The notes under the pieces are model-generated. The model worked only from the letters and a program-made list of their open reading frames with translations, was not told where the DNA came from and made no database searches. Positions 26,273 through 32,102 of a stretch of 39,037 nt of DNA are shown here, in pieces (the stretch's first letter is position 1; each line of letters starts with the position of its first letter). The stretch lies in IMG/VR virus record IMGVR_UViG_3300010885_072385, positions 1-39,037 of that record. One strand, written 5' to 3'. Source of the DNA: a virus. A program made the translations under genes and the position numbers.

Positions 26273-26276
26273 ATTG

Positions 26277-26852
26277 ATGGCAAAAGTTAATGGAAAAAAT
26301 AAAGGCAATGGATTTGAAAGAAAAATTGCCAATCTACTTAGTACACGGTTTGAAACTGAAACTGGTCTAAAATCTTCTTTTAGAAGAAATTCAGATTCCG
26401 GGTCATTTTTCGGAGGAACAAACAAGCAACGCACTGAAACACACAATTTGGATTATGCAGTGTTTGGTGATTTGATTACTCCAAAAAATTTCAAATTTTC
26501 CATTGAATGCAAACATTATAAAACTGCTCCCACGTTTCAATCACTGGTAAATCACAACATTACCATGTGGGATTCTTGGTTGAAACAAGCACAACAGGAT
26601 GCCACATCATCTAATAGAAAGATGTGTTTGATAATCAAATACAATAATGTGGACGAAATTGTCTTGGTTGCAGACAAGCTACTTGACATATATGATTATT
26701 CCAAGTACAAAACCTGGTACGTCTATAAATTGACTGATTTTCTAGCTATGCCAGATGGCTATTTTTTCGAACGTGATCAGTTTTTGTCTTCTGACCAATT
26801 ATCAACAAATGGTTCAAACTTTTCCGGACCCAAAATCAGTTCTCCTGAATAG
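26277..26852 (+). CDS. PD-(D/E)XK nuclease, possible Holliday junction resolvase
   Basis: 191 residues from the ATG at 26277 (a TTG codon just before is not needed). Residues that fit the PD-(D/E)XK core are E14 in GNGFERKIA, D65 in DYAVFGD, and E77-C-K79 in FSIECKHYK. The N-terminus is basic (MAKVNGKNKGNG) and R36-R37-N-S-D-S-G-S-F resembles resolvase-type nucleases (Hjc/RecU-like). Placement directly after gp47 and gp46 suggests a role in resolving or trimming recombination intermediates. A restriction-type nuclease is the alternative. Its last 76 nt overlap the end of the convergent Acb1-like gene. Confidence 0.75.
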   Translation: MAKVNGKNKGNGFERKIANLLSTRFETETGLKSSFRRNSDSGSFFGGTNKQRTETHNLDYAVFGDLITPKNFKFSIECKHYKTAPTFQSLVNHNITMWDSWLKQAQQDATSSNRKMCLIIKYNNVDEIVLVADKLLDIYDYSKYKTWYVYKLTDFLAMPDGYFFERDQFLSSDQLSTNGSNFSGPKISSPE

Positions 26853-27256
26853 GGCATCACGTCTTCCCAGTTTGACCACTCGGAATTATAAGTAATTGAA
26901 ACATGCGGGATGTATTCCGGAAAATCCCACTTGGCGCCCAGTGAACAAAATTCCATCCAGCGATCTTCAAGTTTTTTGGATTCGAATGACAAAACAATGG
27001 TTGTTTCTTCTTCACCAAATGCCAACAACTTTCTATCATTGGTTTCTGGTATGACTAGTTCTCTTTTCTTTGGTCGGATGAGTAACCAATCAACTGGTGT
27101 TTTTGAATGCGCAATAGTCACATGCATGTCTTCGGGTTCAAGTGGTGTCTTACAACCATTTTTTCGAGCCCATTCCCAAACCTCTTCAGCATTAAGTAGT
27201 GGACGTGATACATAAAGGGTATCCTGCTTGGATTCAAATAGATCGATAAGTTTCAT
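26777..27256 (-). CDS. Acb1-like 2H phosphodiesterase, probable anti-CBASS protein
   Basis: 159 residues from the preferred ATG at 27256 (an upstream in-frame ATG at 27271 would add five residues). Two 2H-superfamily motifs are present: H45-V-T47 in DMHVTIAHSKTPVDW and H118-V-S120 in YIPHVSITYN, spaced as in Acb1 of T4-like phages (T4 gp57B family, about 150 residues). Acb1 hydrolyses the cyclic di- and trinucleotide signals of CBASS immunity. The ending GELILGPEKFEPF also fits that family as I recall it. The N-terminus MKLIDLFES contains L-F-E followed by S, like the capsid-targeting peptides of T4 internal proteins. RNA 2',5'-ligase-like activity is the alternative for a 2H fold. Confidence 0.75.
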   Translation of the reverse strand: MKLIDLFESKQDTLYVSRPLLNAEEVWEWARKNGCKTPLEPEDMHVTIAHSKTPVDWLLIRPKKRELVIPETNDRKLLAFGEEETTIVLSFESKKLEDRWMEFCSLGAKWDFPEYIPHVSITYNSEWSNWEDVMPYSGELILGPEKFEPFVDNWSEDKN

Positions 27257-27260
27257 CAAA

Positions 27261-27268
27261 TATTTATG
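27261..27268 (-). promoter_or_regulatory. Late-promoter-like box before the Acb1-like gene
   Basis: The minus strand reads CATAAATA, then TTTG, then the ATG at 27256. This box argues for the shorter start, since the upstream ATG at 27271 would lie before it. Confidence 0.5.
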
Positions 27269-27307
27269 CATTTTTATTTGAAAAATATTTTTTTTATTTT
27301 GCGATTC

Positions 27308-28575: not shown

Positions 28576-28803
28576 TCAATTGGAAACCAGCAGCTCTTCA
28601 GTGCCACCATTCATTTTGCTGTAATACTCTTCAATGACTTCTGCCATTAGTTCACGTTGATTGCGATCAATTTCATAGACTGCATTAATATCAATTGCGC
28701 CGCGTGAATAAAACATGAGTCGCATTAATTCCAATTCAATCAATTTTTTAGTTTTTTTCATGCTCTTGAGTAACGATTCAATAGAATTGGAATCAAATGT
28801 CAA
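28576..28803 (-). CDS. gp51-like tail assembly chaperone part, made by -1 frameshift from gp26
   Basis: This frame encodes 75 residues if counted from a TTG at 28803, which overlaps the gp26 stop (TTGA). No ATG or Shine-Dalgarno is present there. The same frame is entered from gp26 by a -1 slip at T-TTT-TTC (28821-28815), giving a 357-residue fusion (278 residues of gp26 plus 79). The sequence has two helices, ELELMRLMFYSRGAIDINAV and EIDRNQRELMAEVIEEYYSK, similar to the C-terminal domain of G-T type chaperones of tape measures. In T4, gp51 lies beside gp26 and aids hub assembly. The homology call is from position and helix pattern. Confidence 0.6.
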   Translation of the reverse strand: MTFDSNSIESLLKSMKKTKKLIELELMRLMFYSRGAIDINAVYEIDRNQRELMAEVIEEYYSKMNGGTEELLVSN

Positions 28804-29648
28804 GAGCGTTTGGCGAAAAAATGAGTGGGTTCAAACTCCAAGTTTTCTTCCCATGTATGCGGACAGTTTTGGCATTCAAATACAATTGTTTTGTTAATAC
28901 CAATTGCATTCAGTTTTTTAACTGCTTCAAAAACTTGATCAGCTTGTTCTTTTTCAATATTAACTAACCATTCATTGATAAAACTCAAATCTTCCACTAC
29001 TTGATTGGTATCTAGTATCTTAATACTAACAATGCTTTTTGCTACCAAACTAAACGTAATTTGACTTAGTCGTTCCACACTTTCCGATATGCGAGCAGCT
29101 TGTAGGAATTCGTCGTCTGGTGATTCAACGACCGACATTTTAATCAATTTTTCTTCTTCAAATTGATGTTGTAGAAACAACTGCTTCATTTCAAAATTAT
29201 AGGGTTGTATTTCTACGAGCAACTGTTGATTCATCTCAATAAAACAATCAGAGTCATCCACAAAACTCATTGTATCCAACAACATTTGACAATTGAGATC
29301 AACCAGATTTTCATGACTGCAACGTTCACATTTGCGTTCAAGTTCAATTAACCCATTGTTGGTTGCTGCTTTGATTGCAACATAGAGAGCATCTAGATCA
29401 GGTGATTTGAAATTTTTAACATTTTTGATATCAGGGCAACAGCCAGAAATAATAGTTTCTAGGGCATGCCCATTTAATAAAGCATCTGGAGTATTCAACA
29501 TGATGTCGTCAATTGCTCTCATGGCATAGACCCCATGTTCTTTTTGCTGGTTATCAATGTCAGATTCCTTGTACCAACGATCTTGACTTGGAAACTTAAC
29601 AAATAATTGTGGTTGTCTGAAGTGTGACTTGAGTGGGTTTTGTGTCAT
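28800..29648 (-). CDS. 26: gp26-like baseplate hub/tail assembly protein
   Basis: 282 residues; T4 gp26 has 208. Two Cys pairs, C-E-R-C (near 105-108) and C-Q-N-C (near 259-262), fit the zinc-ribbon-like pattern of this family. The middle is helical (QLFLQHQFEEEKLIKM, LSFINEWLVNIEKEQADQVF). T4 gp26 acts in central hub formation with gp51, gp27, gp28 and gp29. The start has AGGAAAA upstream and a perfect TATAAATA box 28 nt before the ATG. Its end contains a T-TTT-TTC slippery heptamer in the correct frame. The tape-measure gene is divergent from it. Confidence 0.75.
   Translation of the reverse strand: MTQNPLKSHFRQPQLFVKFPSQDRWYKESDIDNQQKEHGVYAMRAIDDIMLNTPDALLNGHALETIISGCCPDIKNVKNFKSPDLDALYVAIKAATNNGLIELERKCERCSHENLVDLNCQMLLDTMSFVDDSDCFIEMNQQLLVEIQPYNFEMKQLFLQHQFEEEKLIKMSVVESPDDEFLQAARISESVERLSQITFSLVAKSIVSIKILDTNQVVEDLSFINEWLVNIEKEQADQVFEAVKKLNAIGINKTIVFECQNCPHTWEENLEFEPTHFFAKRS
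28815..28821 (-). other. -1 ribosomal frameshift heptamer T-TTT-TTC
   Basis: On the minus strand gp26 codons read CAT TTT TTC GCC. The heptamer T TTT TTC is of the X-XXY-YYZ class in the zero frame. Slipping -1 continues as CGC CAA ACG CTC TTG ACA, exactly the gp51-like frame, which is closed by a TGA only a few codons upstream. No downstream pseudoknot was identified by eye. Confidence 0.65.
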
Positions 29649-29658
29649 GTTTTTCCTG

Positions 29659-29676: not shown

Positions 29677-29684
29677 TATTTATA
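29677..29684 (-). promoter_or_regulatory. Consensus late promoter for the gp26/gp51 operon
   Basis: The minus strand reads TATAAATA, a perfect match to the T4 late -10 element, 28 nt before the gp26 ATG with AGGA between. It overlaps the divergent promoter region of the tape-measure gene, so both sides of the tail-length module are probably expressed together. Confidence 0.7.
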
Positions 29685-29702: not shown

Positions 29703-32102
29703 ATGGCTGATAATCTTACATATAACAATACGCCGGTTAAGGATTCCAATCCGCTGCCTATTAAAATAGTCAATAAAGATCGTATTGACTGGGCAACTGA
29801 AAAAACCCTTAAGGATTTGGTTGCAAAAACAACTACCAATGGACAAATACTAATAGAAGCTTTTAAAAAATACATTGTCAAAAACAATGATGATGGTGCG
29901 AAAAAGCTTCGTGAATTTGAAGCAGCTTTAAATCGAACTACACAAGCAGCTAAAGACAGTGTTAATGAAAATCAACAAGCTAGTCAGTCACGACGTGGTC
30001 GACTATTAGCTGAAGAAGAAGCCAACAAGCAACAAGCGACTGAAGCTGAACGAAGTGGTGATGCAGCAAAACGACAAGCTGCTGTTTTTAGAAATGCCAT
30101 GTCATCTTATACATTGGGATTGGTGGGAGGCTCGGCTTCAGCAGGTTCTGCGATATCTTCTGTTATTGGTAATTTGGGAACATTGGCTCTGGAAGGAACT
30201 GAATTAGCAATTGGATTTAGTATACTTGAAAAAACTGTGGAAATGGTGGAACACCGTTTCGCACAGATATCAAAAAGTCTGCTGGCGCTAGATGATGTGG
30301 GACAGGGATTCAGTCTAGGACTAACACAATATACAGACATGCTTTATGCTTCGGGTTTGAAGTCTGAAGAACTCAATAAAGAACTGACTCAGCATTCTGC
30401 TGCCACTGCTTATCTGGGTATTCAACGCACAGTGGAATTGGGAAATGCTTTTAGTAAATTGACTAAATTTGGTTCTGAGCTGTTCATGACCAATGAAGAA
30501 GCTCGTGATGCGCAACTGGATTATTTGGAAACACTGCGTTTAACAGGCGATATGCGAGGCAAATCTGACGGTCAATTGGTGGTCAGTACCAACAAATATT
30601 TACAGGAATTGAATCAAGTTGCTGAAGTAACTGGTATGAATCGTCGTGAACTGGAAAAACAAATAAATTCATCCTATAATAATGCAGATATGCAAATCGC
30701 CCTAGCTGGGTTGCCTGGTGCAGTTCGTCAAAATATGATTGAGAAAGTACTTCCTGAAATTGCAAAAACATTTGGTACACAACATACACAGATAGATAAT
30801 GCACTGGGTGGTTACATAAGTCGTGGCTTAGCTGGTGTTGGTCCTGAAATGACCATGGTTCTAAATCAAGCTGGAGCATTTGACGCTTTCCGTGAGTTAG
30901 GTGATATTGCCAAAGCAGGTGGTGATACAACGACTGCTACCAAAAAATTAGCACAGGCAATTGCCAATCCCGAAGCATTGGCTAGACTACAAGCATTTGC
31001 TGGCATGAGTGGGCCAGTGGGTGATTCAGCTCGCCAACTAGTTGCTTTAACACAAGCTAGTCGAAATGCCCTGGAAGGACGAAATGCTGATGGTACTCTA
31101 CAAAGTGCTGAACAAAAAGAAGCGATCAGAGTTCAGGAAAAATTAAAAGTACAGATGAATAAGTTGTCTGCTTCATTCGATAGATTGCTGTTAAATTTAA
31201 TTCCAGTTCTAATTCCAGCGATGGATGTTTTAGCAGATATGATTGGTGTGGTCAGTGAGTCACTACAAGATACCAGTCATTTTATTGATGATTTGGGAAA
31301 AGGTTTCAAAAACGTGGGACAAATGTTAACTGATTTTCTGGCAAATCCATTAAAAACAGTTAGTAAAGCATTTGAATCTCTATTTAATTTCTTCAAACGC
31401 ACATTTGGTATCGATGTGAATAAAGAAGACAAATCGAAAACTGGTGAAAAAACTGAGCCTGGTGCTGGTAGAATAGCTCGAGATATAGGAGTTGTTGGCG
31501 GCGGCGCATTACTCGCTGGTTGGGCAACCAAAGGAATTATTGGTACCGGAGCCAACTTAATTAAAGGTTTAACGGGGTTAGCTGCTAGTCCAGTTGGTGA
31601 AGAAGCTGCACAGGTAGCTGCCAAAGGTGGTGGCAAAGTATTGGGTAAAACACTGGGTCGTTTTATTCCGGGTGTTGGTGCGGCATTGGATGTAGCTGGA
31701 GCAGCGAGCCAAGCACAAAAGGGTAACTGGTTGAGTGCTGGACTTTATGGAGCAGGTGCAGCAACAGGGTTGCTTGCCACAGGACTTGATGCAACGGGAG
31801 TAGGTGCTGTTGCTGGTGTACCTCTGGGTCTGTTGAGTGGTGGATTGGGACTAGCTGGTATGATGACTGAAGGTAAGGCGGTTTCAACACCAAATGTTCC
31901 CGCAACTGGCTCAACTAATACCATGGATGTTGTAATAAAGAAGACCCTGGAACATTATGTAGCAGTACAAAAAGCCAATCAACGACAAATAGAATTACTA
32001 GTACAAGTAGAAACGGCCGTAAATATACTGGCAAATGTTACTGCTCGAGGACATGGTGACATGGTATCTCAATTAAAGAAATCTGGAAATCAAATATATT
32101 GA
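29703..32102 (+). CDS. 29: Tape-measure/central hub protein (gp29-like)
   Basis: 799 residues; T4 gp29 has 590. The N-terminal quarter is a long charged helix (about 30-130, rich in Lys, Glu, Gln and Ala). Hydrophobic Gly/Ser-rich stretches follow at about 134-185, a helical middle, a segment LLLNLIPVLIPAMDVLADMI near 497-516, and a Gly/Ala-rich C-terminus with several hydrophobic stretches (about 595-725). Long helix plus membrane-like segments is the tape-measure pattern: it sets tail length and is ejected with the DNA. Divergence from the gp26/gp51-like chaperones, which bind tape measures in other phages, supports the call. Confidence 0.75.
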   Translation: MADNLTYNNTPVKDSNPLPIKIVNKDRIDWATEKTLKDLVAKTTTNGQILIEAFKKYIVKNNDDGAKKLREFEAALNRTTQAAKDSVNENQQASQSRRGRLLAEEEANKQQATEAERSGDAAKRQAAVFRNAMSSYTLGLVGGSASAGSAISSVIGNLGTLALEGTELAIGFSILEKTVEMVEHRFAQISKSLLALDDVGQGFSLGLTQYTDMLYASGLKSEELNKELTQHSAATAYLGIQRTVELGNAFSKLTKFGSELFMTNEEARDAQLDYLETLRLTGDMRGKSDGQLVVSTNKYLQELNQVAEVTGMNRRELEKQINSSYNNADMQIALAGLPGAVRQNMIEKVLPEIAKTFGTQHTQIDNALGGYISRGLAGVGPEMTMVLNQAGAFDAFRELGDIAKAGGDTTTATKKLAQAIANPEALARLQAFAGMSGPVGDSARQLVALTQASRNALEGRNADGTLQSAEQKEAIRVQEKLKVQMNKLSASFDRLLLNLIPVLIPAMDVLADMIGVVSESLQDTSHFIDDLGKGFKNVGQMLTDFLANPLKTVSKAFESLFNFFKRTFGIDVNKEDKSKTGEKTEPGAGRIARDIGVVGGGALLAGWATKGIIGTGANLIKGLTGLAASPVGEEAAQVAAKGGGKVLGKTLGRFIPGVGAALDVAGAASQAQKGNWLSAGLYGAGAATGLLATGLDATGVGAVAGVPLGLLSGGLGLAGMMTEGKAVSTPNVPATGSTNTMDVVIKKTLEHYVAVQKANQRQIELLVQVETAVNILANVTARGHGDMVSQLKKSGNQIY

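Follow-up and report, generated by a model that had tools for sequence, protein, structure and literature searches.

The window analysed here is a 39,037-base virus record that carries T4-type genes for baseplate wedge and hub proteins, a late sigma factor, an SbcCD-like nuclease, and a portal protein. A gp26-like gene on its minus strand ends in a slippery heptamer from which a second reading frame continues. The features of the locus are listed below, with TAC denoting a tail assembly chaperone.

28800..29648, minus strand: TAC-N / gp26-like gene, short form of 282 aa, with PF12322 and PHROG 150 matches
29654..29657, minus strand: AGGA resembling a Shine-Dalgarno site, 9 nt upstream of the gp26 ATG
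28815..28821, minus strand: slippery heptamer T TTT TTC, read by gp26 in the register X XXY YYZ that a tandem -1 slip requires
28800..28814, minus strand: frame-0 tail past the heptamer, GCC AAA CGC TCT TGA
28576..28815, minus strand: -1 frame extension (TAC-C domain), 79 codons plus stop, with a homologous -1 frame in relatives
28801..28803, minus strand: TTG (overlapping the TGA as TTGA) from which a separate downstream protein could start
28762..28807, minus strand: predicted stem-loop (GCUCUUGA ... UCAAGAGC plus an inner stem), starting 7 nt 3' of the heptamer
29703..32102, plus strand: divergently oriented ORF of 799 aa, a tape measure candidate on account of its position

The gp26-like gene and its overlapping reading frame

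The 282-aa protein matched the Pfam family T4_baseplate, PF12322, which is the family of T4 gp26 (E 2.4e-9; 37.6 bits, above the cut-off of 24.5), and phrog_150, 'baseplate hub' (E 3.3e-14). It was the single PF12322 match in the whole window record, which is a fragment. The structure model of TAC-N had a pLDDT of 87.3 and resembled T4-like baseplate hub proteins among viral models. Against the PDB, it gave no match with E < 0.1, and the best, VIA at Z 6.9, is an unrelated helical protein; a solved tail-chaperone fold was not among these PDB matches, which counts neither way.

The ORF running from 29648 to 28800 ends with CCC ACT CAT TTT TTC GCC AAA CGC TCT TGA, and the heptamer lies four codons ahead of the TGA. 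A -1 slip there leads into CGC CAA ACG CTC TTG ACA... (RQTLLTFDS...), which is open to the stop at 28576. The predicted fusion thus consists of the first 278 residues of TAC-N plus 79, that is, 357 aa. A first-pass annotation of this DNA had stated that gp26 ends with T-TTT-TTC in the correct frame, that the -1 frame from there is exactly a 'gp51-like' frame, and that no ATG occurs at the overlap. The heptamer was indeed located at 28821..28815 on the minus strand, and the frame runs to 28576 as described to complete the 357-residue fusion. The lack of an ATG was likewise confirmed, and the TTG at 28803..28801, which overlaps the TGA, had gone unmentioned. Since TTTTTTY is common in this AT-rich 39 kb window (36 on both strands), the evidence lies in register and conservation rather than in the occurrence of the motif.

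The conserved heptamer and a predicted downstream stem-loop

The homologous loci comprised the window, 8 related viral contigs, 18 phage records taken in among 61 with a tblastn match or homologue, and 107 loci from four single-protein scans (16, 10, 1, and 80 loci), the cyanophage-type loci being the best 80 of at least 570. The first-pass annotation had proposed that the heptamer be looked for in homologous gp26 genes. An in-frame T TTT TTC or T TTT TTT was found at the end of the gp26 gene in 134 of the 134 loci examined (92 distinct junctions), with no loss in close relatives; these loci share common ancestry, some phages or contigs occur among them more than once (as L073/L074 with L008/L009, L089 with L017, L091 with L019, and L099 with L022, among others), and they are not independent trials. 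The last base was C in 90 of the distinct junctions (TTTTTTC) and T in 2 (TTTTTTT). The -1 frame was open through the heptamer at every locus, and at least 3 of these frames run off their contigs.

This conservation spans considerable divergence, as 15 of 16 aligned homologues were just 20 to 33% identical to the window protein. The codon preceding the TTT TTC of the heptamer always ended in T, though the residue encoded was S, N, H, D, A, R, Y, or T, and other Phe-Phe sites in the same genes were slippery in only 8 of 73 cases. On the sequences compared, heptamer and register are far beyond chance.

The frame-0 tail varied among relatives in both length (1 to 11 codons) and sequence. The -1 frame was conserved from the slip onward in the jumbo-phage set, mostly as R..L...PEE, with beginnings such as RQTLL, RVMLL, RSQLL, and RIKLL, often followed by PEE. 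When the window -1 ORF was searched alone against Pfam and PHROG, no family was obtained, just weak PHROG matches at chance level. The -1 ORFs of 121Q and of a Vibrio phage matched PHROG 18291, a family without assigned function.

RNA folding pointed to a structure directly downstream. The 75 nt past the window heptamer folded with -16.4 kcal/mol (z -4.20; 0 of 200 shuffles as stable), whereas in a longer stretch of 126 nt the z value was just -2.02 (6 of 200 shuffles); in the folding comparison across loci, the window scored -5.08. Values of z < -2 were obtained for 15 of 36 distinct stretches in the jumbo set against 7 of 108 control stretches from the same genes, and for 30 of 46 distinct cyanophage-type stretches (loci from the best 80 of at least 570) against 8 of 138 controls. 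By simple folding, a strong stem was absent from 21 of the 36 jumbo-set stretches (z from -2 up to +1.7), and it was missing in RaK2, PHA46, and many relatives in Mimasvirus/Eneladusvirus. The stimulator is therefore either not universal or missed by simple folding.

Covariation was analysed in 10 loci picked from one related group, with the window and L002 outside the set: 5 of 12 pairs had changed on both sides, and 90% of pair cells were kept. The covariation score was matched by 1 of 500 shuffles, and every slid control scored lower. The same stem was recovered in the RNAalifold consensus. From the predicted fold, the stem-loop of the window is a probable frameshift stimulator.

Proposed programmed frameshifting and alternative explanations

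We propose that the locus is a T4-like gp26/PF12322 TAC gene in which a programmed -1 frameshift yields a short TAC-N and a long TAC-NC from one mRNA, and we put the probability of this reading at roughly 0.93. Most ribosomes would terminate at the TGA to give the short form of 282 aa. A fraction would pause at the stem-loop 7 nt beyond T TTT TTC, slip back by one base, and continue in the -1 frame to give the long form of 278 + 79 = 357 aa. The gene, the heptamer and its register, the open -1 frame, and their conservation are read directly from the sequences, and from them we infer the slippage and that it occurs at some rate. The proposal of the first-pass annotation that a -1 frameshift joins the gp26-like protein to the next frame is thereby strongly supported by the heptamer and register at all loci examined, the conserved -1 frame, the scarcity of usable start codons, and the stem-loop.

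That scarcity bears on a different reading, in which two separate proteins are made and the downstream frame starts, by translational coupling, at the TTG of the TTGA overlap. Both the window and L002 have a TTG of this kind overlapping the TGA, and where public records include the downstream frame, they give it as a hypothetical gene of its own or as gp51. However, the 20 nt that precede the window TTG contain nothing resembling a Shine-Dalgarno site, unlike the region ahead of the gp26 ATG with its AGGA, and the -1-frame residues ahead of the TTG are conserved. In many relatives, start codons are lacking around the overlap or from the frame altogether: the first possible one often lay at least 12 codons past the slip (codon 29 in L003) or was absent, and the -1 frames of PAC2 and PA5oct were without one throughout. 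A separate gene would also leave the invariant heptamer and the spaced stem-loop unexplained. In most cyanophage-type loci (best 80 of at least 570), an ATG lies three codons beyond the slip, and there a separate downstream start may be compatible with the sequence. For the family overall, a downstream gene of its own explains the data poorly, and for the window we regard it as very improbable.

Even less probable is transcriptional slippage, in which RNA polymerase would slip on the T run and mRNAs of differing length would encode the fusion. The motif is indeed a run of 6 T, with 7 or 8 in a few relatives, but 6 T is short for transcriptional slippage. Moreover, 90 of the 92 distinct junctions close the run with a C, a pattern better explained by tandem tRNA slippage than by selection for run length, and a 3' stem-loop spaced by 5 to 7 nt is typical of ribosomal frameshifting. 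Least probable of all, at close to nil, is that a Phe-Phe pair happens to be slippery beside an unrelated ORF, an idea to which the 36 TTTTTTY motifs of the AT-rich window lend some colour but which is already contradicted by conservation, since the heptamer stands in register with the -1 frame at 134 of 134 loci against 8 of 73 for other Phe-Phe pairs.

Relation to T4, cyanophages, and known tail assembly chaperones

T4 carries 26 and 51 as two separate, divergent genes, and both proteins match PF12322. T4 gp51 consists of the PF12322 domain and about 48 extra residues; it is a pre-fused long form, like TAC-NC. A PF12322 search of 19 records gave two genes in T4, one in each of 17 jumbo phages, and none by profile in Salicola phage SCTP-2. 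The gp26 of SCTP-2 (L026) was missed by the profile but found by tblastn, and has both the heptamer and the -1 frame; profile counts of gp26 are therefore lower bounds. In the window record, which is a fragment, no second PF12322 gene bearing the C-terminal domain, as in the two-gene type of T4, was found.

A PF12322 search of eight records gave two genes in T4 and RB43 and one in S-PM2, P-SSM2, HTVC008M, KVP40, phiW-14, and phiM12. All six single-gene T4-like phages had T TTT TTC or T TTT TTT together with the -1 frame, and the heptamer was absent from the two-gene phages T4 and RB43. It was likewise found at 0 of 9 complete T4-type gp26 ends, which were taken from 10 gp51 loci after L065, whose gp26 runs off its contig, had been dropped. 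Phe-Phe was kept in 6 of these 9 ends, written TTC TTT.

S-PM2 and P-SSM2 resemble the window in having a single PF12322 gene, TTTTTTC, and a -1 ORF directly downstream. The gene annotated as 'gp51' (57 aa) in S-PM2 (L180 2191-2364) and P-SSM2 (L181 2218-2391) corresponds to the gp26 gene read in -1. Judged from the sequence, the cyanophage 'gp51' probably represents the C-terminal portion of a frameshifted product, not an independent protein, and this annotation probably explains the 'gp51-like' label of the first-pass annotation. Two differences from the window set were noted: the cyanophage-type C-domain has 60 to 63 codons in related loci against 69 to 80 in the jumbo set, and cyanophage gp26-gp51 is directly followed by a large same-strand ORF, unlike the window.

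Profile comparison matched the cyanophage C-domain to the T4 gp51 C-terminus with 97.1% probability (P 6.7e-11), the gp51 set including one partial row, L071. The jumbo C-domain gave a weak match to the same C-terminus (35.1%, P 4e-4), against P values of 0.13 to 0.84 for 12 reversed or shuffled controls. The jumbo and cyanophage C-domains alone were also weakly matched (7.4%, P 0.0048); the fusions matched across both domains with 97.4% over 279 columns. The pairing of gp26 with gp51 proposed in the first-pass annotation stands in part: a gp26-like gene is joined to the next frame and shares the PF12322 family with T4, but the layout is not that of T4, where 26 and 51 are two divergent genes and no heptamer is present.

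Frameshifted tail assembly chaperones in general were reportedly treated by Xu, Hendrix and Duda in 2004. In lambda gpG/gpGT, the short chaperone ends in an in-frame XXXYYYZ heptamer that leads to a -1 fusion with a second domain, and the proteins have a tape-measure role. The window shares with lambda the in-frame heptamer and, by prediction, the -1 fusion, and differs in protein family and in its poly-T heptamer; its candidate tape measure gene is divergent, whereas in lambda-type systems that gene lies just downstream. By analogy with lambda gpG/gpGT, the short form would coat the tape measure protein, and recruitment of tail-tube subunits would fall to the long form. From this analogy and the work on T4-like TACs we infer a chaperone role, and we judge the link to the tape-measure chaperone system drawn in the first-pass annotation to be probably right.

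Vladimirov, Gautam and Davidson, writing in Virology in 2022, are said to have identified the T4-like tail assembly chaperone genes, with the frameshift reportedly conserved in several T4-like groups and T4 using the separate genes 26 and 51. The T4-like TACs of Vladimirov et al. 2022 reportedly involve the same gp26/gp51 genes as the window, with short and long forms. According to PMC12846349, it is known that TAC-N genes in T4-like phages use poly-T sequences as -1 signals; PMC10885494 describes some T4-like phages that do not frameshift but have a short gene alongside a longer fusion gene; and PMC3004832 had earlier counted T4 gp26 and gp51 among the hub assembly chaperones. PMC12846349 further describes a conserved poly-T (GTTTTT) -1 frameshift at the TAC-N end in Pseudomonas phage Adele and in Vandenendeviridae / Andersonviridae; these are other phage families, with a slippery sequence different from that of the window.

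The first-pass annotation knew of no earlier description of such a frameshift for the T4 gp26/gp51 pair; the main idea is already in print for T4-like phages. The window gene is a well-supported further case of a T4-like TAC with a probable frameshift, not a first. Literature on a jumbo-phage or T4 gp26/gp51 frameshift yielded no jumbo-group case, from which we do not claim absence from print; the jumbo-phage branch and the covarying stem-loop may be unreported.

More tentatively, and with the odds somewhat against it, a poly-T -1 frameshift with a 3' stem-loop at fixed spacing could be the ancestral state for all T4-like chaperones, whose range extends from cyanophages to the very largest jumbo phages. 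It would then have been lost in the T4 lineage after gene duplication, where slipperiness is gone and Phe-Phe mostly kept. Frameshifting and gene duplication as two routes to the same protein pair offer a natural comparison, and the T4 hub genes 26 and 51, whose role was long uncertain, become tied to tape-measure chaperones.

The frameshift reading also corrects an annotation gap, as jumbo phages such as RaK2 and PA5oct lack an annotation for the second half of what is probably an assembly protein, a part that is elsewhere labelled a separate hypothetical gene or 'gp51'. The unannotated -1 frame lies at L012 3849-4214 in RaK2 and at L020 after 2852 in PA5oct. In Atu_ph07 (L022 2930-3052), just the 3' part of this frame is annotated, as a hypothetical gene.

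Regarding the neighbourhood of the gene, the divergent 799-aa ORF at 29703..32102 had no Pfam or PHROG family match. In RaK2, the gene at the corresponding position carries an annotation of similarity to a tape measure protein; judged by location and by this counterpart, the ORF may be a tape measure protein. The motif TATAAATA at 29677-29684 on the minus strand, about 30 nt upstream of gp26, resembles a T4 late promoter; a claim of a late promoter was dropped, as 4 copies in the window against 3.7 expected is at chance level. Farther away, the gene at 26777-27271 (minus strand) matched the anti-CBASS protein Acb1 (PF23474, E 1.2e-35), a counter-defence gene, and its convergent neighbour at 26274-26852 (plus strand), whose 3' end overlaps it, matched a phage putative PDDEXK endonuclease (PF24608, E 3.3e-24).
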